Shown: positions 3,101 to 62,941 of the stretch, in pieces
Position numbering within the stretch: the first letter of the stretch is position 1
Layout: every line of letters starts with the position of its first letter
DNA from: Chrysaora quinquecirrha
Lineage: Eukaryota > Cnidaria > Scyphozoa > Semaeostomeae > Pelagiidae
Reading direction: 5' to 3'
DNA: 64,000 bases
Assembly: GCA_014526335.1 (NCBI GenBank)
Contig: JACTAT010000014.1
Span: 7,965,659 to 8,029,658 of the forward strand
Notes under the pieces: model-generated
Databases searched by the model: none
Told to the model about the DNA's origin: nothing
What the model saw: the letters and a program-made list of their open reading frames with translations, nothing else
Position numbers and translations under genes: made by a program

Positions 3101-5505
3101 CTTTCCTCTTCGGAAATAAGGGACCTGATTGGCTGGTAGCTTTCCCGGAATATCCATTCGACCGAGTCCATTGACAGCGGGAAGAGATTGTGTCCGGTCC
3201 ATTTGTAAAATGCGGTCAGTTGCTTTCTTCTTTTGCAGTGTATCAAAAATATACCCAGAACCGAATTTGTTATTTCCGTTAACATCACCACTAAGAATCT
3301 CAGATGAATTGGAAGTGTCCGAGTCATAATCGGACGGCTGATTCGGTTTTAGCTGTTTTCCAAGAAGATCGATCTTTCTGTTCAGTTCAGAAAGTTCTTT
3401 TCGTTTTTCTCTCAGAGTTGATTGCTGAAGATTTAACTGTTCTTCTTGTTGGTTATTTACTTCATTTCGAACCTGTTTATTGAGAAAAGCACGAAATAAA
3501 CTGAAAGTGATTTTTGGAGGAAACGAAAAGAGGTTTATTTCGAAACATTCAAAAATGACAAATACTATTGAAAAACTGAGAGGACGATACAGGTTAGTAA
3601 TGAACAAGATTAATTATTGCCTATTGCCATATTTTGTTGCCAATCTTTCTCCCAATATAAGCCACCAACAGACTACAAGCCTCGGTTAAATAAATATTTA
3701 TTGGGAATTCGGGATATCATTTTCGGTTTGAATAACTTTGTTACCAAAATTAAATTCAAATAGACTTACAGTGAGTTCTTTTCTAAGACGATCAAGTTCA
3801 TCCCGCGCGGCACGAATTTTTCTTCGGCGGTTAAGTTTTTCAGGAGTGACTCTTGCATTTGATAGGCCGTTTCTTCGATCCTCCAGTTGTTTCGTCAAGT
3901 TGTCAACTTTAGCAGCGGCGGAGACAAGCTCTCGTTGCTTTGACGTGAATATTTCTCGTACTCTTTCTAACTCATGGGCTGGAACAAGAATGAGAGAAAT
4001 ATTGAAAATACAAATTTTCTATAACACAGAGCTGACCCAAGTTAGAAAAGTTTTGCAGGCAATCTACCCGGCGGTTTACTCTATTCCTGGGTCTAAAGCT
4101 AAAGGATGCGGCGCAGCGTGATCACAGGTAAATAGTCTTGGGGACTCTTGTGGGACTGATGAAGAGCCAACAGTCAGGTAGTTCAGTAGGTTGAGCATTC
4201 CGAAATGGCATACAAGCCTATTGCGGCAGCAGTAGGTTCGAGATCTGTCCTAGTCTTATCATCTTTCACGTTTTCTTCAACAGTTTCTCTGAAGTAGGAA
4301 AATCTATTTTATGTAAATGTAACTTATGTCCTCTTGCACGATATGATCTTTCTAATCCTTCATTCTTTCTGTTAACGTCGATAGTTCTACGTCATACTCG
4401 AACTTTCTGTTAGAACAAAGTGGCATGAATAATTTCTAACTGCACAATAAATCATGTGACTTGTAAACACTATAACAACAAACTCTAGTAAATAAGGAAT
4501 CAGTCAGTAGGAGGTCAGTGTAAAGTCAGTGTAAAGTCAGTTGAATAAACATGATAGAGAATCGTCTCTCAAATGTCGTCTGAATCCGTGTGTTCTCTGC
4601 ACACACATAAAACTCATGCAGCAGCAAAGATCTTTCTGCTACGAACGATCCCGGTTACATCTCTAGGGGGGGGGCCTTTATACTAATACTTAGTATAATT
4701 TTGGTACGGCTATGTGCAGTCTATATGGGTGGGCTTTTGGTCCTGAAATTCTCTAAACATGGGTTTGATTTTAACCGGAATGCCATATCTCTCTCTCTTG
4801 CAGTCAGTCGATGCGACTAGGACTATTTTATGAATAGGGCGTTGATTATGTAACTGTTCTCCATGCAGCTCTATCGTTTGCCATAGTCTGCCAGGATTTC
4901 AGGTCAATCTCTCTGTGTTTCATGTTTCGCTTTGCCACATCTTTGAATCTACGTCTAGGTCTTCTCTCGTTTCTTTTTCCTTCAGCCAGTTGTGAGTACA
5001 GCAGTTGTCTTGGAAGCCGGTCGTTGTCCATCCTGTGCACGTATCCTATCCATATCAGATTCTTTTCGGTAAGGATATCTGCCATTCACGGCAGGTTGGC
5101 ACGACGCAGTATCCCCACATTTTTGTTATACCACTTGATGCTCATGATGTCCCTCAACCCGGGCTTAAAAGAAGCTGAACTATCAAAAAAAGCAAATTTC
5201 TACAAACCTAGCTGCACGTTATCAAATCTCTGTGAGTCAACTTCGTCTTGAACGAGTTTCATTTCTCTCAGTCTTCCAAGATGATTCTGGTAGGTTTCTC
5301 GAAGTTTCGAAGCATATGCATCATTTTGAGCTGGCTTTGGTGATCCCAGGGCTCCCTGTGGTGCTTTTTTCAACCCGGCTTGCATTTCTTTCAATCGCTG
5401 TTGCTTAACAATCAGCTCCTGGTTGTTGCGTAGTATTTGCTTGCGCTGCTTCTCAGCCATATTTTGAAGCTGTTGTAATGTCATTTGTGTTTTCAAGGGG
5501 TTTAT
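1..5505 (-). CDS. ASPP-family gene (ankyrin-SH3, p53-binding/PP1-binding), 3' part
   Basis: Five minus-strand exons (5208-5505, 3770-3978, 1542-3472, 800-966, 1-172) join in matching phases at GT/AG sites. The encoded order is coiled coil, coiled coil, long disordered proline-rich region, ankyrin repeats, SH3. That is the order of animal ASPP1/ASPP2/iASPP (TP53BP2 family), which bind p53-family proteins and PP1 through the ankyrin-SH3 end and modulate apoptosis and polarity. Recognition rests on strong similarity to the family: LLLDAALEGE, EGITALHNAVCG, WTPLHCAAFYND, AMTYSDRQTAAEKC and the SH3 core LYDYTAERDDELSF. The N-terminal RA/ubiquitin-like exon expected upstream of 5505 was not found, and the last part of SH3 lies beyond base 1. 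The five exons show no frame break. Introns carry a minisatellite and a LINE remnant. I cannot say whether it is closer to ASPP1/2 or iASPP. Confidence 0.93.
173..799 (-). other. ASPP intron
   Basis: Non-coding between the ankyrin and SH3 exons. It contains four tandem TAGT units near 262-278 and nothing else recognised. Stops occur in all frames. Confidence 0.7.
800..966 (-). CDS. ASPP exon: ankyrin repeats
   Basis: Acceptor AG is at 968-967 and donor GT at 799-798. The 167-nt exon encodes TPLHCAAFYNDMELCKFL followed by VEHGASVYAMTYSDRQTAAEKC, which is the third/fourth ankyrin region of ASPP proteins. The tryptophan codon before TPLH is split across the intron with the 1542 exon. Confidence 0.92.
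1106..1490 (+). repeat. Minisatellite (about 18-24 bp unit, GTGGAGGATATCATCA-type)
   Basis: At least 15 degenerate units built from CAGTACGGTGGAGG and ATATCATCA, within the ASPP intron. Open frames here in several phases are repeat artefacts. The reverse complement of the same unit occurs at 43.55 and 60.9 kb. Confidence 0.9.
1542..3472 (-). CDS. ASPP long central exon (coiled coil end, Pro-rich, ankyrin start)
   Basis: One open 1.93-kb exon. It starts at the phase-0 acceptor after 3473, in a Q/N/E-rich coiled coil (VRNEVNNQQEEQLNLQQ). A Ser/Asn/Pro-rich disordered stretch follows, then a proline cluster (EPDLPPPLPEKRKPQLPPKP) that would suit SH3 ligands. It ends with the first ankyrin repeats (EGITALHNAVCGNHKEVVRY, DINSPDNNGW). 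Just before the ankyrins is RIQL, at the place where ASPP2 carries the PP1-docking motif RVKF. Family proteins have one such central disordered region. The proposed frame also runs upstream of 3472, but that part is taken as intron because the AG acceptor and phase match the 3770 exon. Confidence 0.92.
3770..3978 (-). CDS. ASPP coiled-coil exon 2
   Basis: Acceptor AG at 3980-3979, donor GT at 3769-3768. It encodes AHELERVREIFTSKQRELVS, then AAAKVDNLTKQLEDRRNG and ARDELDRLRKELT, matching the family pattern QKQREL...KVDELTRQLE...ELDRLYKEL. It enters in phase 1 (the Ala codon is split) and leaves in phase 0. A diverged copy of its first half is found at 30.7 kb. Confidence 0.88.
4172..4253 (+). 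repeat. tRNA-like SINE head
   Basis: An A-box-like GTAGTTCAGTAGGTTGAGC is followed about 45 bases later by a B-box-like GTAGGTTCGAGATC. The cloverleaf does not close as a functional tRNA, so a tRNA-derived SINE remnant is preferred. It lies in the ASPP intron. Confidence 0.4.
4846..5170 (-). pseudogene. LINE C-terminal remnant in ASPP intron
   Basis: The minus frame gives IKWYNKNVGILRRANLP, a stop, then IWIGYVHRMDNDRLPRQLL, KRNERRPRRRFKDV and ANDRAAWR. This is the conserved C-terminal tail after the RT domain of many animal non-LTR elements (GHV.RM...RLPRQ...GRP..R..DV...AWR). It is a short dead fragment, unrelated to the host exons on either side. Confidence 0.75.
5208..5505 (-). CDS. ASPP coiled-coil exon 1
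   Basis: Acceptor AG at 5507-5506, donor GT at 5207-5206. It encodes INPLKTQMTLQQLQNMAEKQ and a long Q/K/E coiled coil ending RFDNVQL, comparable to the LTLAELQEMASRQQQQIE segment of vertebrate ASPP2. The upstream exon is not identified. A paralogous exon lies at 31512-31812. Confidence 0.85.
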
Positions 5506-10876: not shown

Positions 10877-12390
10877 CGTTCAATGGAGAGAAGGGGTATA
10901 AAAGATATTCTAGAGTTTCCCACAAGTCTCACATGCTTCTTCTCATTCACTGACTCATTCATTCAAGGTTCCTCCACACTACACACATGCATAGAAGAAT
11001 CCAAAACCACAAATACAACATTATTCTTCCTAAATGGATTAGAAAAACCCTAAATAGGGAACTATTGTGGGTGCATAATTGTTTTCAAAGATAATCAAAC
11101 CTGATCAAAAACCATCAGTATAAAAAGAAGCTGCTCAGAGGTGATAATAAGTAACTGTTTTCCTTTGGTAGGAAAACCACTAAGATTAAGCTTATCAGTG
11201 TATTGGATTTCAGCAAGACAAAATCAACCATGTGTTGTACCAAATGCCACCCTATTGCAACATATCTGCTGCATCAGAACTGAACTTACTTCCAGGGTGG
11301 CCAAACAGCAAACAGAGGGCTAGAACACTGTGGCTCAAGTTAATTAAAATGTAACAGGAATAATCTTAGCATAGGCAAAATAGTGATGCTTATAGCCCAG
11401 TTAGAAGGGCAACTGACAGAATTTTGGTGTGGACTTGCCACCCAAGCTCAAAACACATTTGTGTTCTGCAGGAGCACAATGCTGGTGGGGCCAGGGTCCA
11501 TCCCCCCCCCCCAAGAATGAGAAAACAGTAAAAAATTGTCAGAAGCTTATAAACAATTGTTATTATTTTCAGGAAATTTTGGTTTCAAAACTTTGGTTTT
11601 TGCCATCAAAATCGATCTGTCAATGATTCCTAACTGGTAGGCTTGTCCTGGTGGAGCAGACTAGCAAAGTCCCTGTCAGTGCAAATTTTTCTATTTGAGA
11701 GTTGTTGTTATTGCTCTTGTATTGTAATTGTGTTGTAAACAGCTTGTGTCTGAGCAATAAATGTCAAGGGGAAAAAACAAACCTGCACATTAGTTTTTTT
11801 TACCTGGGTCCCCCCCAGGGGAGGCTTCACTCATTTAAGACTTGCAGTACTTTATGTGTCAGTTTGTGAGGGGACGGTCTTATCTTTGTATATACTTAAG
11901 CAAGTCAGTTTTGGTTATTTGGTTGTATAGAACTGGGGAGATTGTCTCTGTCATGATGTCAAAAGAGGAACAATTGTCAAATCAAATGAAGAGGCTCCTT
12001 ACCTTCCCTGCAGGTGGCATTGTTCCATCTGCCATTGACTCCAGTTGTTTCATTGTCTTCAGCATTAGTTGCAGCACATTTCAGTTTCAGCAATGTATCT
12101 TCAGGTTACTATGGAGAAGAAATTATTTTCATGAAAATTTGTTAAAAAGAAAGTCTTTTCACATGCCCCAGCCTAGTGTGTTCTGGTTGCTACAAAATCT
12201 GAACCTCTATAAACCAAGATTTCGAAATTGCACATACTTGAAAGCTTTTTATCTGACACTCTTCAGAAAATATACAGTCTTCTGAAATAACTGACTATAA
12301 GGCAGTATTATAAATAAATATCAGCTGTCTTGACCCTTTGTCCCTTATTTTTTCTCTACCAGTAACTAGATTAACCTGTATATAAAGTTT
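10877..12390. other. No gene seen
   Basis: No exon is supported on either strand. C-runs near 11505 and 11808 look like ends of a decayed DNA element. Short open frames show no domain. Confidence 0.4.
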
Positions 12391-15263: not shown

Positions 15264-16595
15264 TATTACCTATAGATATTCTTTGATATTTTGCAATTAA
15301 AACCAATATTTTCTTTATCTTTTGCCCAATAATTTCTGAATCAAGATCTGAAAGGGGACAGAAAAAGAACTAAAATGATCTGTGTTAAAAAAACAAAAAT
15401 TTCCCATCAAATGCATAAAACACAGACTAATGGCTTGACTTTGATCCCAGGGCCAACTCTCACACTGCAAGGAAAGAATTATTTAATTAAATTGGCCTTG
15501 TTTGGATAAAATTGTTCTAATCTGGACATCAGAAGTGTTTGCCATAAAAGTTCCGCATGATTCTGTTTACTGATTCTGATTCTGTCCTATCCATGCATGA
15601 GCCTCTAAATTTTCTACCCAGCTCACTATCCATACCACATAGATATCGACGAAAAATGAATATTTATGATTTAAGTAATGCACTGTAAGAAATTCGATGG
15701 TTTTCGGTTCACAATAACCGCTTTAGCTTACCTTTGGCAAAAGAAATGGTGCGAAGCAAGAATGTCAAAAACTCAAACGAAAAGTCGACTCCGATCGTTT
15801 ACTTTTCAAACTTATAAGGCACATAGCAGATAAAACTTGGCTTCAAATCATCCTTAACATATTCTCTGTTTTTTCATATGTTTTTACGATCTAATTGACA
15901 CATTACGAACAGCTGATCCGTCGTGACAGCATTGACAGTCAGACGGCAAAATCGACGGGCCTAAATTGAGATGAGGAAGGCAAACAAATATGGCTGACGT
16001 TACTTAGCGATCAGAATTTAGTTTACGTACCTGTTGGATATAAAATCACTGTCTTTATAGTTCTTGTAACATATATTTAATCCAGAGTTTGAAATGGACC
16101 GAGTGTAATGATGTTTTCCAGTGTTTAAATTGCGAAATAGTGTAGTAGAAGTTCGGCATGTAGTAATCTCTCACTTTCAGTCTCTGGAATGTGAGAGGAA
16201 CCGTGAAAGACGCCATAAGCACTAAAACAAACCGGGGGTAACATTCTTCTCAACGTGAACGGTCAAAGCCTTTACAGTATGGAATCGGGAACATTCAGAC
16301 AACAAGCGCTAGAACAGTGTACCTATGACACAGTTTTTGACACTTTATACAATTTTTGAATAAAAAACTCGATATCTTATGATTCCGACAAATTTCAATG
16401 TATCCTGTCGGCCGTTTATACCGAAATTATCTATTCTTCCCTTCTATCTTCACTGAATGTTGGAACGACAAGGTTTTTTTTGTAAAAATGCAACACACTT
16501 TGCTTGTTAATGTCTTTGTTCGCGTTCGCTTGCTTTTTATTTTACATTTGGTCTAATGGTCTTACTTACATATTCAGCCGACAAAATCCAGGCTC
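15264..16595. other. No gene resolved; possible promoter tract
   Basis: Less AT-rich than its surroundings near 15700-16260, with a plausible minus-strand donor (CCAAAG|GTAAGC) near 15730 and the plus-strand exon candidate just downstream. It could be a divergent promoter, but no coding exon is convincing. Confidence 0.25.
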
Positions 16596-30409: not shown

Positions 30410-30485
30410 AATATACGTTTTAGTACGCTCCGTTTTGGGGTTAGGGTTGATACAATACAATTTGTTTTAGGGTTAGGGTTAATAC
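30410..30485 (+). repeat. Short interstitial TTAGGG-type repeats
   Basis: Two patches of GGTTAGGGTT separated by about 30 bases. They lie just downstream (minus sense) of the chimeric gene. Confidence 0.7.
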
Positions 30486-30576
30486 TATACTTTGATGACT
30501 GGCACCCCCGATGGTGCGATCTGGTTCTGGAGCTTTCTGAGTGTATTAATATCAATGCAGATGCAAAACATATATA

Positions 30577-31812
30577 TTAAGTATAGTAGATATCGTTACG
30601 TGTGTCGAGTTCCATTGGCGATCCCTTTGACTCCGCTTTTTGTTTCCTTTCCAAACTTTTGCCGTTTGCTTTTTCCTCTTCTTGCTGTTCCACTACATTA
30701 TCAACTTTCGCAGCTGCGGTAACCAGTTCCGTCTGCTTTGATGTGAATATCCTTTGCATTCTCTCCAAGTCGTGAGCTGAAAAAAGTAAGAAATATCAAA
30801 AGCATATAAAACAAAGCAAAAATTGATTCTCAAGTTTTCTTTGTGAGCTAGCCCTGGATTACTGGTGGGCGAGTTTTGCTCAGTGTCTAATTTCAAGTCC
30901 AATCGTAAATAGATGGTTGTTAACATTGTATTGTCTTTCACAGTGTTACGGGTTGGGATAAGCGTCAGGGATTGTGTTTAGGGTAAGGGCAAACGTCAGG
31001 GTGAGGGCTAGCGCCGGACTTGAGTTAGGTCGTGACTGTGAGGAACGTTGATAAGGATCCTCAAATAGGGTTTGGCGCAAAAAGAGAGAAGAAACGAAGA
31101 AAGGACAATTGCAATTTGCTTCCTTTTTCTCTTTTTGCGCCAAACCCTATTTGAGGCTCTGGAACCCAGGGTAGTCTAGCGGTACAGAGAGATAGTTGTT
31201 AGGTTAAGTGCAAGAGTTAGCGTTGGGGATGGGGATCAGGGTATGGGGCACATTTAGGGCTAGCGTTTTGTTCGTCACTGGGTGCCACTTTCACTTTTCT
31301 ATGATGCAAGGGCAAGGCCGTCGTCCGTCATAAGGCAGAGCGGGGCAAGGGGTAATATGATCGTACCGGGCTGTTAGGAGGTTTTAGGAGAAAGCATTAA
31401 GATAATTTCAATTTCCGCGCGTTTCTTGACAGCCCCGGCCCGGACTTCGGACCCCACCCTTTTAATGGTACTGCGGAGAGGTGTTTGCCAAAATACATTT
31501 TTCTACTATACCTAGCTGTGCATCGTCAAATCTTTGAGGCTCTACTTCATCATTATTGAGTTTCATCTCTCGCGGGCTTCCAACATCATTCTGGTGGGGT
31601 TCCCCATGATTGGAATCATACGCATCGACTTGATTTGATTTTGGTGATTGCTTGGATCTCTTCTCCACTCTCATCAACTCAGCACGCATTTCTTCCAACT
31701 GTTGCTGCTTAGCAGTAAGCTCCTGTTCGTTACGTTCTATTTGAAGACGCTGCCTTTCAGACATCCATTCAATCCGTTCTTCTAATGTCATTTGTGTCTT
31801 CAAGGTGTCTAT
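30577..31812 (-). CDS. Chimeric gene: ASPP-like coiled coil fused to receptor tail
   Basis: Two minus exons, 31512-31812 and 30577-30776, with AG/GT borders at the same places and phases as ASPP exons 5208-5505 and 3770-3978. The first reads IDTLKTQMTLEERIEWMSER and ends RFDDAQL; the second begins AHDLERMQRIFTSKQTELVT and AAAKVDN. After that it stops resembling ASPP and becomes the cytoplasmic tail of the B/D receptors (KANGKSLE...GSPMELDTRNDIYYT, stop at 30577). DNA beyond the stop also resembles the B and D 3' UTRs. No TM segment is present in what I can see, so the product would be cytosolic. It may be expressed or a pseudogene; upstream exons were not found. Confidence 0.75.
30940..31300 (+). 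repeat. Degenerate GTTAGGGT/GTTAGCGT tract with hairpin insert
   Basis: Loose TTAGGG-like units (TTTAGGGTAAGGGCAAACG, GGTTAAGTGCAAGAGTTAGC) in the intron of the chimeric gene. It is interrupted at 31059-31156 by two exact 29-nt inverted arms (CCTCAAATAGGGTTTGGCGC at the outer end) around a 40-base loop. Confidence 0.75.
31512..31812 (-). CDS. Chimeric gene, coiled-coil exon (ASPP paralogue)
   Basis: About 100 codons, open. Acceptor AACAG before 31812 and donor GTATAG after 31512. Q/E/K heptads (QRLQIERNEQELTAKQQQLE), then SPKSNQVDAYDSN; ASPP has SPKPAQNDAYASK at the same place. Confidence 0.8.
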
Positions 31813-31951: not shown

Positions 31952-33259
31952 GGCATACCGTAAAAACCAGACCCTAGGACGTGAGACCCCTGAGACCTTT
32001 AGGACCATTAAGTACTGACATCAAAAAGGACCGTTAACACCAGAGGGTATTCGCCTTCTAAGAACAATAGAAGATCGCAGTAGGCTGTCAGTCCGGGTTT
32101 TCTTAGTAATGGTTCTTCCGCTATTTGGCTGCTTGCCTTCTCGTGCGTCTCTCAGTCAATACTTTTTATTAATTAATCTTTGTTGTTTGAATATCTGTCG
32201 GCCCAAATAAAAACATTTCTTTTCAGTTTAATGCAATTTTAAGCATCGATAGATGCCTTAAAACTAGATTCTGGGTTCTTGAGATATTATCAAGGTGTGC
32301 AGCTGTCGTAGCCGCTTTTCATTCAAATCCACAAACTTACATATTGCATCGCGAGGCCAAACGAAGAATCACCCAACAAAGTCTTGTTTTGGTCTGGTTT
32401 GCTTTTGAGAAAATCCTGATTTTGAAACAAAAAATCTTGAAACAGTTTTTCGAAACTTGCTTTGTTCTTTTGTGAAAATTTAATAAATCTTGTCCAGTTC
32501 TGCATTGCAGCATCGCACCTCTACTTTACGTCGACAATTCACGATACCTATGTTTCGTATAAATTATCTTACGCATTTTAAGAAATCGAACAGAGGGGCG
32601 ATTCAGTCCTTGAAAATCTCGTACATCCTTGCTTGGAAAGCTATCGTTTTCACGGAAATCTTTGGAAGTCCTGTTGTCTTAGTAAAAATCTTTTTGAAAC
32701 GTGAAAATTTTCGACATGCGCTCTGGCTCTAATCATGCTGTAATGAATAGAAGTCAACAGCAAATCTCTTCTCTTAAAACTTATTTTGTTTTGGTCGCTA
32801 TAAAACATTGTTTTAGCCAAACAAGAAATCCCAAGAAATGGCTTCGCTGCAATAAAGGCAAATAAAGGGAAATTGATATAAATTGAGACCGAAACACCTG
32901 AAGGCAGACAGCCAAAACGAGCGCTAAAATAACAGACATCTATCGAAACTTAAAAAAATGCATTAACCTGAAAATAAATGTTTTTGTTGGGCCATAGCTC
33001 TAAGACAGTGAGGTATTCAATCAAACAACAAAAATCAATCATTAAAAATATTGACTACTGAGAGACACAAGAGAGGGCAGGCAGCCAACTAGCGGAAGTA
33101 CCACTACTAAGAAAACCCGGACTGACAGCCTACTGCGATCTTCTATTGTTCTTAGAAGGCGAATACCCTCTGGTGTTAACGGTCCTTTTGATGTCAGTAC
33201 ATAATGGTCCTAAAGGTCTCAGGGTCTCACGTCCTAGGGTCTGGTTTTTACGGTATGCC
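31952..33259. mobile_element. 1.3-kb element with about 220-bp inverted ends
   Basis: 31952-32180 and 33030-33259 are inverted copies beginning GGCATACCGTAAAAACCAGA, with only scattered differences. No transposase frame lies between them. The right end abuts a truncated gypsy pol frame. The interior near 32585-32720 matches the GGGGCAATTC/CTCGTACA repeat family also seen at 55.8 and 61.5 kb. Confidence 0.8.
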
Positions 33260-33261
33260 GC

Positions 33262-34817
33262 GTGACAGAGGTGGGATAGGTCAGTGTAGCAAAACTAGGG
33301 ATGAACCTGCGATAGTATCCTGCCAATCCTAAAATGGATCGGACCTGGGCTACATTCTGTGGTGTAGCTATTTTGGCGACACACTCTATTTTCGCTGGAT
33401 CTGTGTGAACTCCATTGGCTGACACTACGTGCCCTAAATACAAAACTTTCTCTGCACCAAAACAACATTTACTTGCTTTCACGCGCAAGTTATGGGTGCG
33501 GAAGCGGTCTAGGACCAATCTCAATTTCTCACAATGTTCTTGAATATTTGACGATGGTATGATTATATCGTCAAAATAACATAAACAAGTATCGTCCTGT
33601 AGACCAGAGAGAACGATTTCTATGGCCCTATCAAATGTCGCAGGAGCTCCAGACAAACCGTAGGGAAGCCTAACAAATTCAAATAATCCGTCCGGGGTAA
33701 CAAAAGCGGTTTTCTCCCTGTCCTCGGGGTGCATACTTACCTGCCAATAGCCCTGGCGGAGGTCAAGAGTACTAAATATCCTAGAACCATTTAGGGCATC
33801 TAATAGATCATCTACCCTGGGCAAAGGGTGGGCATCTCGGATAGTTATACTGTTGAGTTTGCGATAATCGACGCAGAATCGATAAGATCCATCCTTTTTC
33901 TTCACGAGAACAATAGGGGATGCCCAGGGACTTTGACTGGGTGTAATGACCCCTTGTTGTAGCATCTCTGAGATCTGTTTGCTCGTCTCTTCACGATACG
34001 CGTATGGCAGACGTCTTGGGTATTGGCGGATGGGTAATGATTGACCTGTATTAATCCTATGCGCTATCACATCTGTATGGCCTAAATCAGGCTGGAAAAC
34101 ATCTCTATACTGCGACAAGGTATCTAATAAAATGCTCTTATCACGCGAGGATAGTGAAGGGCTTAAGGCCGCTTTTAATTCATCCTGAACAGGTTTACTT
34201 TCTGCAGTACTACATACATAATTGCTATCAGAAAAAGGACCCTGTAGGGATTCCGCAAGAGGGCAAAAATCAGCGACTCTCTGGCCCGAAAACATTTCAA
34301 TATCAGAGCTCGCTGTATTCATAATTCGGATCGGAATATCATTACCACTTTTACCTGCATTACACACTGTGTATGCAACCTGTAAGGAAGAATGTAAATT
34401 AGCAGCTGGCCTAGGTGTAATCATACCCACCGTTTCGCAAACACTTCTAGAAACTGAACCAGTAAGGACAACCTCTGCCCTACTTGGGATTAGCACATTA
34501 GAAGACAAAGTCACAGGCACGGGTCCCCTTGATGGGGATTGGGTGAGAATCACGGAGCATGCATCCCTGTCACCCTTGAGAGGAGCATGCGATGCAGCCA
34601 ATTGTCCCGAAACAAATCCCGTGGGAGTAAGTGGAGTACTGCCATGAGATCCTGCCAAGAAATAACAACCCCCCTCAGCTACGATACTAAGGCCATTGCT
34701 AGTCAAAAAGTCCCACCCGAGGATACACTCAAGCGGAGGTTGCAAGTTTGAGCAAACCAAGAAATTACCTATATAGTGGACGGTTTCACCACTTAACAAT
34801 TGTAGGTTAGCCTGCAC
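33262..34817 (-). pseudogene. Truncated Ty3/gypsy pol (protease end and RT)
   Basis: An open minus frame holds a protease C-terminal part (CILGWDFLTSNGLSIV), then a reverse transcriptase: PWASPIVLVKKKDGSYRFCV, LDLRQGYWQ, VRLPYGLSGAPATF, the YFDD active site, and LGLAGYYRRFI. Gag, RNase H, integrase and LTRs are missing. The frame runs into the inverted end of the neighbouring 1.3-kb element, which marks the 3' truncation. It is a different lineage from the element at 49-53 kb. Confidence 0.85.
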
Positions 34818-35061
34818 TACCCCCCGAACGCTTAATGGTCACGCCCTTCAAACTCTCGCAAATACAGGGAAGCACCCTTTTTGCCCCCCCCATGAGTTTT
34901 ACGGCGTTTTTGGACAAATCTTGAGGACCATATTCTAGAAAAGTGGGGCGGTCCAGACCCCCCTTCCATCCCCCTTGGGTACGCCACTGTTATTAACGCA
35001 CGATAATATAACGATATTACAAGCTACGGTAGCTCTTAAATACATAAATACACAATCTAAC
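34818..35061. other. Repeat remnant
   Basis: Ends in GGGTACGCCACTG, resembling hAT-type CAGTGGCGTA termini. A last exon of the CD20-like gene might lie here or further left, but was not identified. Confidence 0.35.
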
Positions 35062-35355
35062 CTGAGATATTGTTTCCTTGTCAACAGAGCTACATCTTGA
35101 GGCGTCAATTTTGTAAGCATAAAATGTTGCTGTGCCAGCAAGTATAATTTCTAGAACCATTAGAGCTACAAATGTTGCATAAATGGCAATTCCAAGTTTT
35201 TTGTCAGGGTATTCACTGCATACAGTGTCTGTATTATAGGAGGAGACACACAATCCTTTCTTGTAGTATTCTATCCCAAGGCCTGCTATTATACTTTCAC
35301 ACAATGCAACGGAGGCACCAACAACTGCGAACGAAAGAATCATTGGGAACAGTTC
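35062..35355 (-). CDS. CD20-like copy 1, TM3-TM4 exon
   Basis: Acceptor TTCTTGCAG before 35355; donor CAG|GTTAGA after 35062. 98 codons, open. Confidence 0.7.
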
Positions 35356-36804
35356 CTGCAAGAAAATGTAAGACCATTAGTTTAACCATGCGTAGGGGGT
35401 GTAACTACTAGGTTTGGTGTTGGTAATGGATAATGGTAAGCTAAGGATTCTTTGCCAAAACAAATTAACCTCTGCACAAGGTCCGGCCAAACATTGCCAC
35501 TACTTTCCACTACTTTTTACGGTACTTTCCACTACCGTAAATGACGGAATCAGCACCCGGGGCACTTAATTAAATCTTCAACCTTTAGATGGGGCACTTA
35601 TTCAGCAGGGGCAATTATTCAAGCATGGGCGCTTATTAAATCTTCATATCAACATCAAATACATTCACTGTAAATAATAACTACCCCTAGTATGTTTATT
35701 TAATTTCGCTAGTTTCAAAAAGCGCCCCTTCAGATTACTGAATGACAAAATAACCGCCCCTTTTGTTTTAGGGGATGGTTATTCGGGCAAGGGCACTTAT
35801 TGAAAAAATACTCTTATACCGCGGTGCTTATTCGGCAGGGGCGGTTATTCGGCAGGGGGTGCTTATTGAAAAAATACTCTTATACCGGGGTGCTTATTCG
35901 GCAGGGGCGGTTATTCAGCAGGGGCGGCTAATTCCGTCATTTACGATACTGTAACTCTCAGGCTACACCCTTGTCACCCTGGGGTAATGGAGTGGTATAT
36001 CCCCACAAAATAGCGAGATCTCCCTGTTTATACAGTACCCACTAGCCTGCGTGCAGACTTTACTGGTAACTGCGGAGGAGAGGGGAATAGTCTCCAGGCT
36101 AAGTACCCACATAAGATAGCAAAATATAAAGTTATAGCTATTCAAAACTTAATTTGCTCACCGTATCATCTTTTCTTTGTCGTAACTGCACCAAGCAAGA
36201 ACTACAACAGATAACAATTGTTTCAAAATGAAACATGCCATTATCTGTTAACCCCGGTATTTCATATGGGTCATATGGGATATGACAGATGATAGAAATA
36301 GTTATACAAATGTGTATACAGACTCGTGTCTTTAAACTGAGCGTGGCAGGATTTTGACGGGGCTTGCTCGAGAGGGGCATATTTGAAATTTAACACATAG
36401 AGGGGGGCTTTTTCGAAAGAGGGTTTATTCATAAATGAGTACTTGACGTTTTGTTATGGTTCTCATCCTATCGAATATTAGAATTGTACAGTAAGCAGGG
36501 AATCGTTCAAGTCAAAAACGTAGCATTTGTAGTAAAGAAACAATCAGTCTACGAAAAAGCCTACCAAAAATCCGATCAGTATTCCAGAGCCAAATTTGTT
36601 CGCCCAGAAATGAAGTTTCACATATTCGGCAATACCAAAAAAAATACATATGAATCCAAGAGCCATTTGCATCAGTGAAACCATTGCTATCCATCTGGCA
36701 TGCTGCGTCTGAAGAACATGACTAAATCGTTTCCATTGTATAGGTGGCAACACGGTTTCTTGTACCGTTGTGCTTATACCACTATCTTTTGAATATTCTT
36801 GCAT
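35062..36804 (-). CDS. CD20/MS4A-like four-TM gene, copy 1
   Basis: Two exons recognised: 36565-36804 and 35062-35355. The first starts MQEYSKDSGISTTVQETVLP and reaches TM1 (WIAMVSLMQMALGFICIFFG) and the start of TM2 (FGSGILIGFLV). The second has TM3 (MILSFAVVGASVALCESIIA), a short loop with two cysteines (CVSSYNTDTVC) and TM4 (IAIYATFVALMVLEIILAG). Four TM segments with a cysteine loop between TM3 and TM4 fit the MS4A/CD20-like group, small plasma-membrane proteins. The family call is by topology and feel, not by a strict motif. A short middle exon (perhaps near 36150-36240) and the C-terminal exon are missing from my model. Confidence 0.6.
35524..35952. mobile_element. MITE with CGTAAATGACGGAAT ends
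   Basis: Left CCGTAAATGACGGAATCAGC and right GCTAATTCCGTCATTTACG are inverted. The interior is short repeats of GCTTATTCGGCAGGGGCGG. It lies in the intron of CD20-like copy 1. Confidence 0.85.
36565..36804 (-). CDS. CD20-like copy 1, first coding exon
   Basis: ATG at 36804. Donor probably TTTTTG|GTAGGC at 36564, since the same GTAGGC occurs at the matching place in copy 2. A later GTAGAC is possible. Confidence 0.6.
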
Positions 36805-44089: not shown

Positions 44090-44283
44090 TCATTCCTTGG
44101 TATCGTAAAAATTGTTACGTGCACCGAGTTCCATCTGTGTTGGCGATGCCTTTTCCTGTGGATTATATGGGACTTCCAAATTCTTGCTGCTTGTTTTGCG
44201 TCGATGAAATACGAACAGCAGGATAAGTATCAAAAGTATTACCCCAATGACCACGATTGGTACGGCTATTTTCACAGCTTTGT
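44090..44283 (-). CDS. Gene B TM and cytoplasmic tail exon
   Basis: After CTTTCAG the exon reads NKAVKIAVPIVVIGVILLIL and ILLFVFHRRK: one TM and a basic stop-transfer. The tail contains KNLEVPYNPQEKASP and ends ARNNFYDTKE at a stop at 44090. NNFY is an NxxY-type motif, the kind bound by PTB domains. D has NNVY and the chimera NDIY. Confidence 0.85.
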
Positions 44284-62750: not shown

Positions 62751-62941
62751 TCATTCCTTTTTATCGTAAACATTGTTACGTGCACCGAGTTCCAACGATG
62801 TTGGCGATGCCTTTCCCTGTGCATCGTATGGCACTTCCAAAGTTTTGCATCTTTTTTTGTGTTGATGATGTATGATCACAAGCAGAACGAAAAGTACAAC
62901 CACAATGACAACGATTGGTACAGCTATTTTCACAGCTTTGT
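62751..62941 (-). CDS. Gene D TM and tail exon
   Basis: Acceptor TTTCAG before 62941, stop at 62751. Tail TLEVPYDAQGKASP ... NNVYDKKE keeps the NxxY motif of gene B. Confidence 0.85.

Follow-up and report, generated by a model that had tools for sequence, protein, structure and literature searches.

Genes and elements at the locus

The window, the whole stretch of 64,000 nt of jellyfish DNA that was analysed (C124:7965659-8029658 in the 328 Mb, 740-contig genome searched), holds an ASPP gene, a cluster of EGF/SEA receptor genes and a two-exon unit that combines sequence of both (hereafter the chimera). Along the minus strand, read 5' to 3', the order starts with receptor R3 and a receptor-like fragment and continues with a putative LTR element, receptor R2, two multi-transmembrane (multi-TM) genes a and b, and the chimera, followed on its 3' side by an EGF gene (23.8-22.1 kb), presumably mesothelin-like, and then by ASPP. 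The features are as follows.

62751..62941, minus: last exon of R3, a paralogue of R2; the gene runs past the window to about 66.8 kb
44090..44283, minus: last exon of R2 (TM plus tail), parent 2; the gene starts at about 48.5 kb
36565..36804, minus: 5'-most recognisable exon (80 codons) of multi-TM gene b, 79% to its paralogue at 42060-41599
35062..35355, minus: last recognisable exon of gene b, ending in the phase-0 donor CAG^GTTAGA (^ marks the splice boundary)
33237..34838, minus: open frame with a reverse transcriptase domain (PF00078, E 3.5e-33), between gene b and the chimera
31952..33259, no strand: inverted-repeat element of 1.3 kb whose terminal inverted repeats are long; 139 nt separate it from chimera exon 1, which lies downstream
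31812-31512, minus: chimera exon 1, 301 nt, a copy of ASPP coiled-coil exon A (blastn and splice comparison)
31511-30777, minus: chimera intron, 735 nt, with two repeat families inside
30776-30577, minus: chimera exon 2, coding part; its 5' part is ASPP exon B and its 3' part the receptor last exon
30662..30690, minus: breakpoint zone inside exon 2, where ASPP homology fades (limits set by eye)
30486..30671, minus: receptor-derived tail and 3'UTR (nhmmer, E 2.4e-14)
12003..12053, minus: first coding exon of ASPP, Rhopilema-like form (MKQLESMADGTMPPAGK), from tblastn with P0001/P0002 and an exon scan
5208..5505, minus: ASPP coiled-coil exon A, parent 1
3770..3978, minus: ASPP coiled-coil exon B, parent 1
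3472-1542, minus: ASPP exon C, the start of the ankyrin/SH3-coding region (C-E), which is absent from the chimera
966-800, minus: ASPP exon D, same region
172-1, minus: ASPP exon E, same region, cut by the window edge

The ankyrin-SH3 part of the window ASPP matches solved chains of ASPP2/53BP2 and iASPP. Over 186 residues of this part, its closest relatives are P0001 (EukProt; 90%), P0002, an ASPP of Rhopilema esculentum (87%), and P0003 (85%), followed by proteins of Hydra and Clytia and unnamed proteins at 72-76% (among the best 120 of 1107 matches), and in a tree of the full-length proteins the window ASPP groups with P0001, separately from P0002 and P0003 (support 100). The host is accordingly a medusozoan cnidarian. 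An RA/ubiquitin-like exon was not found by Pfam in 5.5-25.4 kb of the minus strand. A weak match to the N-terminus of P0001 (FHGS..SHIPETE; E 0.29) at 16176-16244, on the same strand, is perhaps an upstream ASPP exon.

The receptor cluster occupies 44.1-48.5, 53.4-55.3 and 62.7-64.0 kb and extends beyond the window to about 70.2 kb. Its members have a large ectodomain, which we take to be mesothelin-like, followed by EGF, SEA and transmembrane segments, with the SEA of R2 falling just under the Pfam cut-off, and a relative carries two such receptors (P0121 and P0122). The TM-tail exon of the receptors evolves fast (Ka 0.19, Ks 0.26); the R2-R3 ectodomain exons have a lower Ks (0.09-0.12), which hints at gene conversion. 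A receptor-like ectodomain gene at 21.9-24.2 kb (35% to R2) had no SEA or TM-tail exons behind it by tblastn. Between the receptor pieces, at 48.8-53.3 kb, lies a stretch that we take to be a probable LTR element; when translated, pieces of its two ends are 86-100% alike over 26-29 aa.

The multi-TM genes a and b, two copies located between the chimera and R2, share stretches of 79% and 72% identity. The two joined exons of gene b encode three hydrophobic segments above threshold and matched no Pfam family, including CD20; the MS4A/CD20-like label used for the gene is our assumption. In copy a (39.4-41.9 kb), the second of the recognisable exons contains a TGA in frame. The reverse transcriptase frame downstream of gene b is presumably gypsy-like, and the arms of the neighbouring inverted-repeat element are 100% complementary at 31952-31989/33222-33259 and 95% at 32024-32156/33057-33189. 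Further repeat-like tracts, open in several frames, occur at 9.6-10.1, 10.5-10.9 and 25.6-26.6 kb, and a search of the window with Rfam returned nothing.

Two sources of the chimeric exons

Chimera exon 1 aligned to the ASPP gene at 5510-5197 with 71% DNA identity over 318 bases (blastn, E 5e-39), and the ASPP-like part of exon 2 aligned to 4002-3900 with 73% identity over 104 bases (E 1e-8). The acceptor of exon 1 (AG^ATA) is in phase 0 and its donor reads CAGCTAG^GTATAG. The chimera splices CAGCTAG^GT to AG^CTCACGAC and ASPP splices CAGCTAG^GT to AG^CCCATGAG, with donor and acceptor at homologous positions and in the same phase. Between the intron of the chimera and that of ASPP, similarity was undetectable by blastn; the former contains sequences with copies throughout the genome (about 31322-31458 and 31056-31174) and a hairpin with arms at 31056-31090/31125-31159. 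In the spliced form, 166 open codons lie between the acceptor of exon 1 and a TAA stop at 30577-30579, with the ASPP-derived and receptor-derived parts each in their native frame and with two indels in the ASPP part, each of one codon (3 nt). The idea that these are ordinary alternative exons of ASPP was rejected, as the two sets lie 25 kb apart with a receptor-like gene between them.

A DNA profile made from the two last exons plus UTR of the receptors (44285-43925 and 62942-62555) matched the chimera at 30671-30486 (E 2.4e-14), with the next best match within the window at E 1.5. The tail scored 48.0 with R2 and 42.5 with R3 in pairwise alignment, where the highest scores among 500 mononucleotide shuffles each were 20.7 and 16.6; together with the profile, these values reject chance similarity. 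The homology continues past the stop codon into the 3'UTR, and in a three-way alignment the receptor stop has been lost from the chimera by a deletion of 35 nt, such that its own TAA and last residues derive from former receptor UTR. The same alignment contains a 6-nt in-frame deletion in the tail and a 13-nt deletion in the UTR, after the 35-nt one. The chimera has in common with R2 and R3 the end of the cytoplasmic tail together with the 3'UTR, whereas it has no EGF, SEA or transmembrane segment, ASPP sequence occupying that position. With the ASPP family (ASPP1/2, iASPP, APE-1) it shares the N-terminal helical/coiled-coil exons at the splice positions of the local gene, whereas the ankyrin repeats and SH3 domain are absent, the open frame stopping at 30577 in receptor-derived sequence, and amino-acid change is fast. 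Pfam found no domain in the 166 residues.

These results bear out the core of the first-pass annotation, which had described a chimeric gene that copies two ASPP coiled-coil exons with their splice positions and phases, switches to the receptor tail inside the second exon (now placed at about 30690-30662) and is open in both frames. Its statement that the 3'UTR follows the receptors also holds, with the refinement that the chimera's own stop is old UTR. The attribution to the p53 pathway does not follow, since only the N-terminal coil was copied and the p53 reading rests on the ankyrin-SH3 half, which is missing.

The same annotation had called the receptor part a putative signalling tail, which the comparison leaves unsupported. 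Identity of the tail to R2 is 62/89 in coding sequence and 56/86 in UTR, and to R3 63/89 and 55/89; over 27 codons, Ka 0.36 and Ks 0.46 against R2 give a ratio of about 0.8, and Ka 0.47 and Ks 0.24 against R3 a ratio of about 2, from few sites. No constraint on the tail is detectable, its coding sequence being barely better kept than its UTR. A conserved signalling motif was rejected, given this lack of constraint and the receptors of the relative, which end in SNAGIDYNR and SNAGVDYKR; an N-x-x-Y spacing is common to R2, R3 and the chimera tail.

Upstream of the chimera (31.8 to 44.0 kb), tblastn with R2, P0121 and P0122 gave no match at an E cut-off of 0.01, and Pfam found neither EGF nor SEA in 31.8-41.8 kb of the minus strand. 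The best score for an ASPP-like first exon in 31.8-44 kb was 10.3, compared to 67.0 for the true exon, and the upstream region had no DNA match to the 5' region of ASPP, nor was a promoter region found.

We favour, if only slightly, the reading that the locus holds a lineage-specific chimeric gene unit in which ASPP exon A and part of exon B are joined to the last exon and 3'UTR of a receptor. Such a chimera is of a known general kind, with a well-supported origin and a putative function.

Coding capacity and possible products

That the chimera was coding during most of its lifetime is moderately probable. The ASPP part has a pairwise Ka of 0.28 and Ks of 1.03 (ratio 0.27; bootstrap 0.14-0.48, with 2% of 1000 replicates at or above 0.5), and its differences from ASPP fall 39, 29 and 56 on the three codon positions of 137 codons. 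The ratio on the chimera's own branch may be near 0.5 or higher, as most of the amino-acid change lies on that branch.

The main alternative is that the fragment is dead or dying: part of ASPP was duplicated and fused to receptor debris, the product is no longer translated, and the frame stayed open by luck and through a recent loss of constraint. We regard this as a serious prospect that falls short of an even chance. It would not readily account for 166 stop-free codons in sequence where many codons would become a stop by a single change, for indels of 3 nt in both cases in the ASPP part, for intact splice sites or for a Ka/Ks below 0.5 in 98% of the 1000 bootstraps. Neutral distances (d) of 0.1 to 0.5 per site were compared; sister-species DNA would be needed to fix the one that applies to the chimera branch. 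In neutral simulations with ASPP codons, frameshifts not counted, the probability that 137 codons remain without a stop was 0.024-0.029 at d 0.2, 0.012-0.019 at d 0.25 and 0.005-0.009 at d 0.3 (0.005-0.03 over this range, which speaks against a dead fragment), while at smaller distances the open frame is less surprising (0.047-0.050 at d 0.15 and 0.12 at d 0.1). The argument from the open frame is inflated by the fact that the finding was picked for it.

Identity between the chimera and ASPP (78/137) is above the neutral expectation at d 0.5 (51; range, 41-60) and equals that at d 0.25 (81; range, 71-90). Likewise, the mean BLOSUM62 score of the replacements (-0.18) is somewhat milder than neutral at d 0.5 (-0.61; range, -0.96 to -0.26), a point against a dead fragment, and within the neutral range at d 0.25 (-0.88 to 0.0). 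Gains of Gly/Pro were also few (4 against a neutral median of 8, p 0.08) and hydrophobic gains somewhat few (p 0.11), while the hydrophobic positions kept (26/37) resemble the neutral median (28/36). After gapped columns and sites at which the window ASPP and P0001 differ had been dropped, none of seven tests for avoidance of change at ASPP-conserved sites was significant (p 0.12-0.34); sites conserved in P0002 were the same in the chimera at 58 and different at 35, compared to 12 and 11 for variable sites (p 0.25), and the rank correlation of change with ASPP conservation was weak (0.16, p 0.06). This near-neutral pattern favours a dead fragment, as do the tail that is hardly better conserved than UTR, the missing promoter and first exon, the repeats that flank and invade the chimera, and the decay nearby in multi-TM copy a with its in-frame TGA. 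If dead, the chimera shows how long a fused frame stays open by chance.

If the preferred chimeric gene unit is translated, its product would be fast-evolving and mostly helical, with up to 166 residues plus any contribution of upstream exons. AlphaFold predictions from the single sequence of each exon gave a helix at residues 10-54 of exon 1, with block pLDDT of 92-98 over residues 11-50, and a helix at residues 2-48 of exon 2. In the available text of a study of C. elegans, the N-terminal helix of ASPP localises the protein to epithelial junctions and its ankyrin repeats multimerise PP1 (PMC12543280). Another source, likewise in the text available, describes binding of PP1 by the RVxF motif and SH3 domain of ASPP and the connection of PP1 to RASSF8 and Ccdc85 by Drosophila ASPP (PMC6377682). 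By analogy, the coil of the chimera may be a functional equivalent of the worm helix. With the N-terminal helix present and the ankyrin-SH3 part missing, the most likely mode of action would be that of a decoy or negative partner of ASPP, a tentative proposal that we rate as rather doubtful, in which the chimera would occupy the docking partners of ASPP, or pair with ASPP, and bring no phosphatase. The receptor part would then chiefly supply an existing stop region and 3' end, and would not work as a signalling tail. If expressed, the chimera would be a new protein from fused parts of local genes in an early-branching animal whose genome still carries both parents close by, and a natural test of the ASPP N-terminal helix without the phosphatase-binding half.

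A further alternative, which we consider unlikely, is a three-part gene, in which the chimeric exons are the C-terminal exons of gene b and place the coil and receptor tail on the cytoplasmic side of the membrane. The first-pass annotation had the coil without a membrane anchor, but a phase-0 splice from gene b to the chimeric exons is feasible and would provide one. The donor of gene b is family-conserved, as CAG^GT(T/A)AGA occurs at the same place in five of nine paralogous loci (L017-L021; comparison over L017-L025, with L026 left out), of which L018 and L019 have identical translations; the more distant L022-L024 have a phase-0 GTAAGT donor nearby and L025 did not align. A phase-0 tail exon follows downstream in two of three paralogue loci scanned (L028 and L029, not L027; L030 was left out), and no such native exon was found behind gene b between 35.07 and 12.0 kb. 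The phase-0 acceptor of chimera exon 1 lies 3.25 kb downstream of the gene b donor on the same strand, and the reverse transcriptase fragment and the inverted-repeat element take up about 2.9 kb of this distance.

Several points weaken the three-part gene. By phase alone, about a third of all acceptors would match, reading through the donor gives gene b a stop of its own at 35019, and the upstream gene has just three hydrophobic segments and no Pfam family. The missing tail exon behind gene b may reflect only divergence, since a tail exon was also missed behind copy a (in the 2.6 kb scanned) and in L027. It is more doubtful still that the product is a multi-TM protein that lost its own last exon, ends in the ASPP coil and receptor tail, and acts as a membrane-anchored antagonist or recruiter of ASPP-PP1. 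If true, three unrelated neighbours would have entered one gene, and a modulator of the ASPP-PP1 junction complex would exist only in this jellyfish lineage.

Uniqueness, age and origin of the join

An assembly artefact or chance similarity has a negligible probability, because a misjoin of the parent loci cannot yield a join inside sequence about 30% diverged from both parents, the join sits within an 8.5-Mb contig, and the receptor profile (E 2.4e-14) speaks against chance.

Returning to the chimeric gene unit, a search of the whole genome with its protein found four places, two of them the chimera exons and the other two exons A and B of ASPP, with all 13 candidates scored. When the entire unit served as a DNA query, 40 of 107 candidates were scored; among the 64 matches listed, exon 1 matched itself and ASPP only, and the other 62 derive from the repeat-bearing intron. 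The tail DNA (30440-30675) matched only itself, the receptors being too diverged for such a DNA search. A protein database search, covering proteins of about 91-290 aa, gave 30 candidates and none at E <= 1; no database relative is expected for a lineage-specific gene, and the size range would miss longer gene models. No solved structure matched the chimera at E <= 1, and in the one library of literature searched no cnidarian ASPP chimera was described.

Of 139 sites, 18 distinguish the window ASPP from P0001, and here the chimera agrees with the window ASPP at eight, with P0001 at one and with neither at nine; where the two agree, the chimera has changed at 50 of 121 sites. Since the chimera sides with the window ASPP over P0001, the sequences indicate that the duplication probably postdates the split from P0001, with a tree support of only 60 for the chimera's place. 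The names gene17311, gene17313 and gene17315, given in the relative to ASPP and two such receptors, suggest that the receptor-ASPP neighbourhood is old.

The parents lie near each other on the same strand with the receptor upstream of ASPP, and the order within the chimera is reversed. From this arrangement, a local tandem duplication (or unequal exchange) is proposed, the junction of which would be the join, with breakpoints in a receptor last exon and in ASPP exon B; such a junction would be the simplest way to set ASPP 5' sequence before a receptor 3' end. The duplicated ASPP first exon that a one-step tandem duplication predicts upstream was not found. Further, the ASPP part looks more diverged at synonymous sites (Ks 1.03; bootstrap 0.64-1.82, from 84.5 sites) than the tail does (0.24-0.46, from 16-17 sites), a hint that the process took two steps. 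If the first exon was lost later, or if there were two joins in succession, the missing exon and the uneven Ks would be accounted for.

Chimeric genes from tandem duplication are known elsewhere, and Quetzalcoatl of Drosophila is reportedly one of them. In Drosophila yakuba, according to the available text of one report, tandem duplication has brought together the 5' end of a gene and the 3' end of a different gene, and the GE18453/GE18451 chimera described there likewise involves neighbouring genes and a 5'-to-3' join that ignores gene boundaries (PMC5460883). Unlike the Drosophila chimeras, the jellyfish join is old (about 30% diverged) and in a cnidarian host, and its second boundary and duplicated first exon were not found. 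Exactly where the receptor homology stops, at 30432-30490, there are two copies of a 27-nt unit with TTAGGG-like (telomere-like) sequence, a possible scar of break repair.
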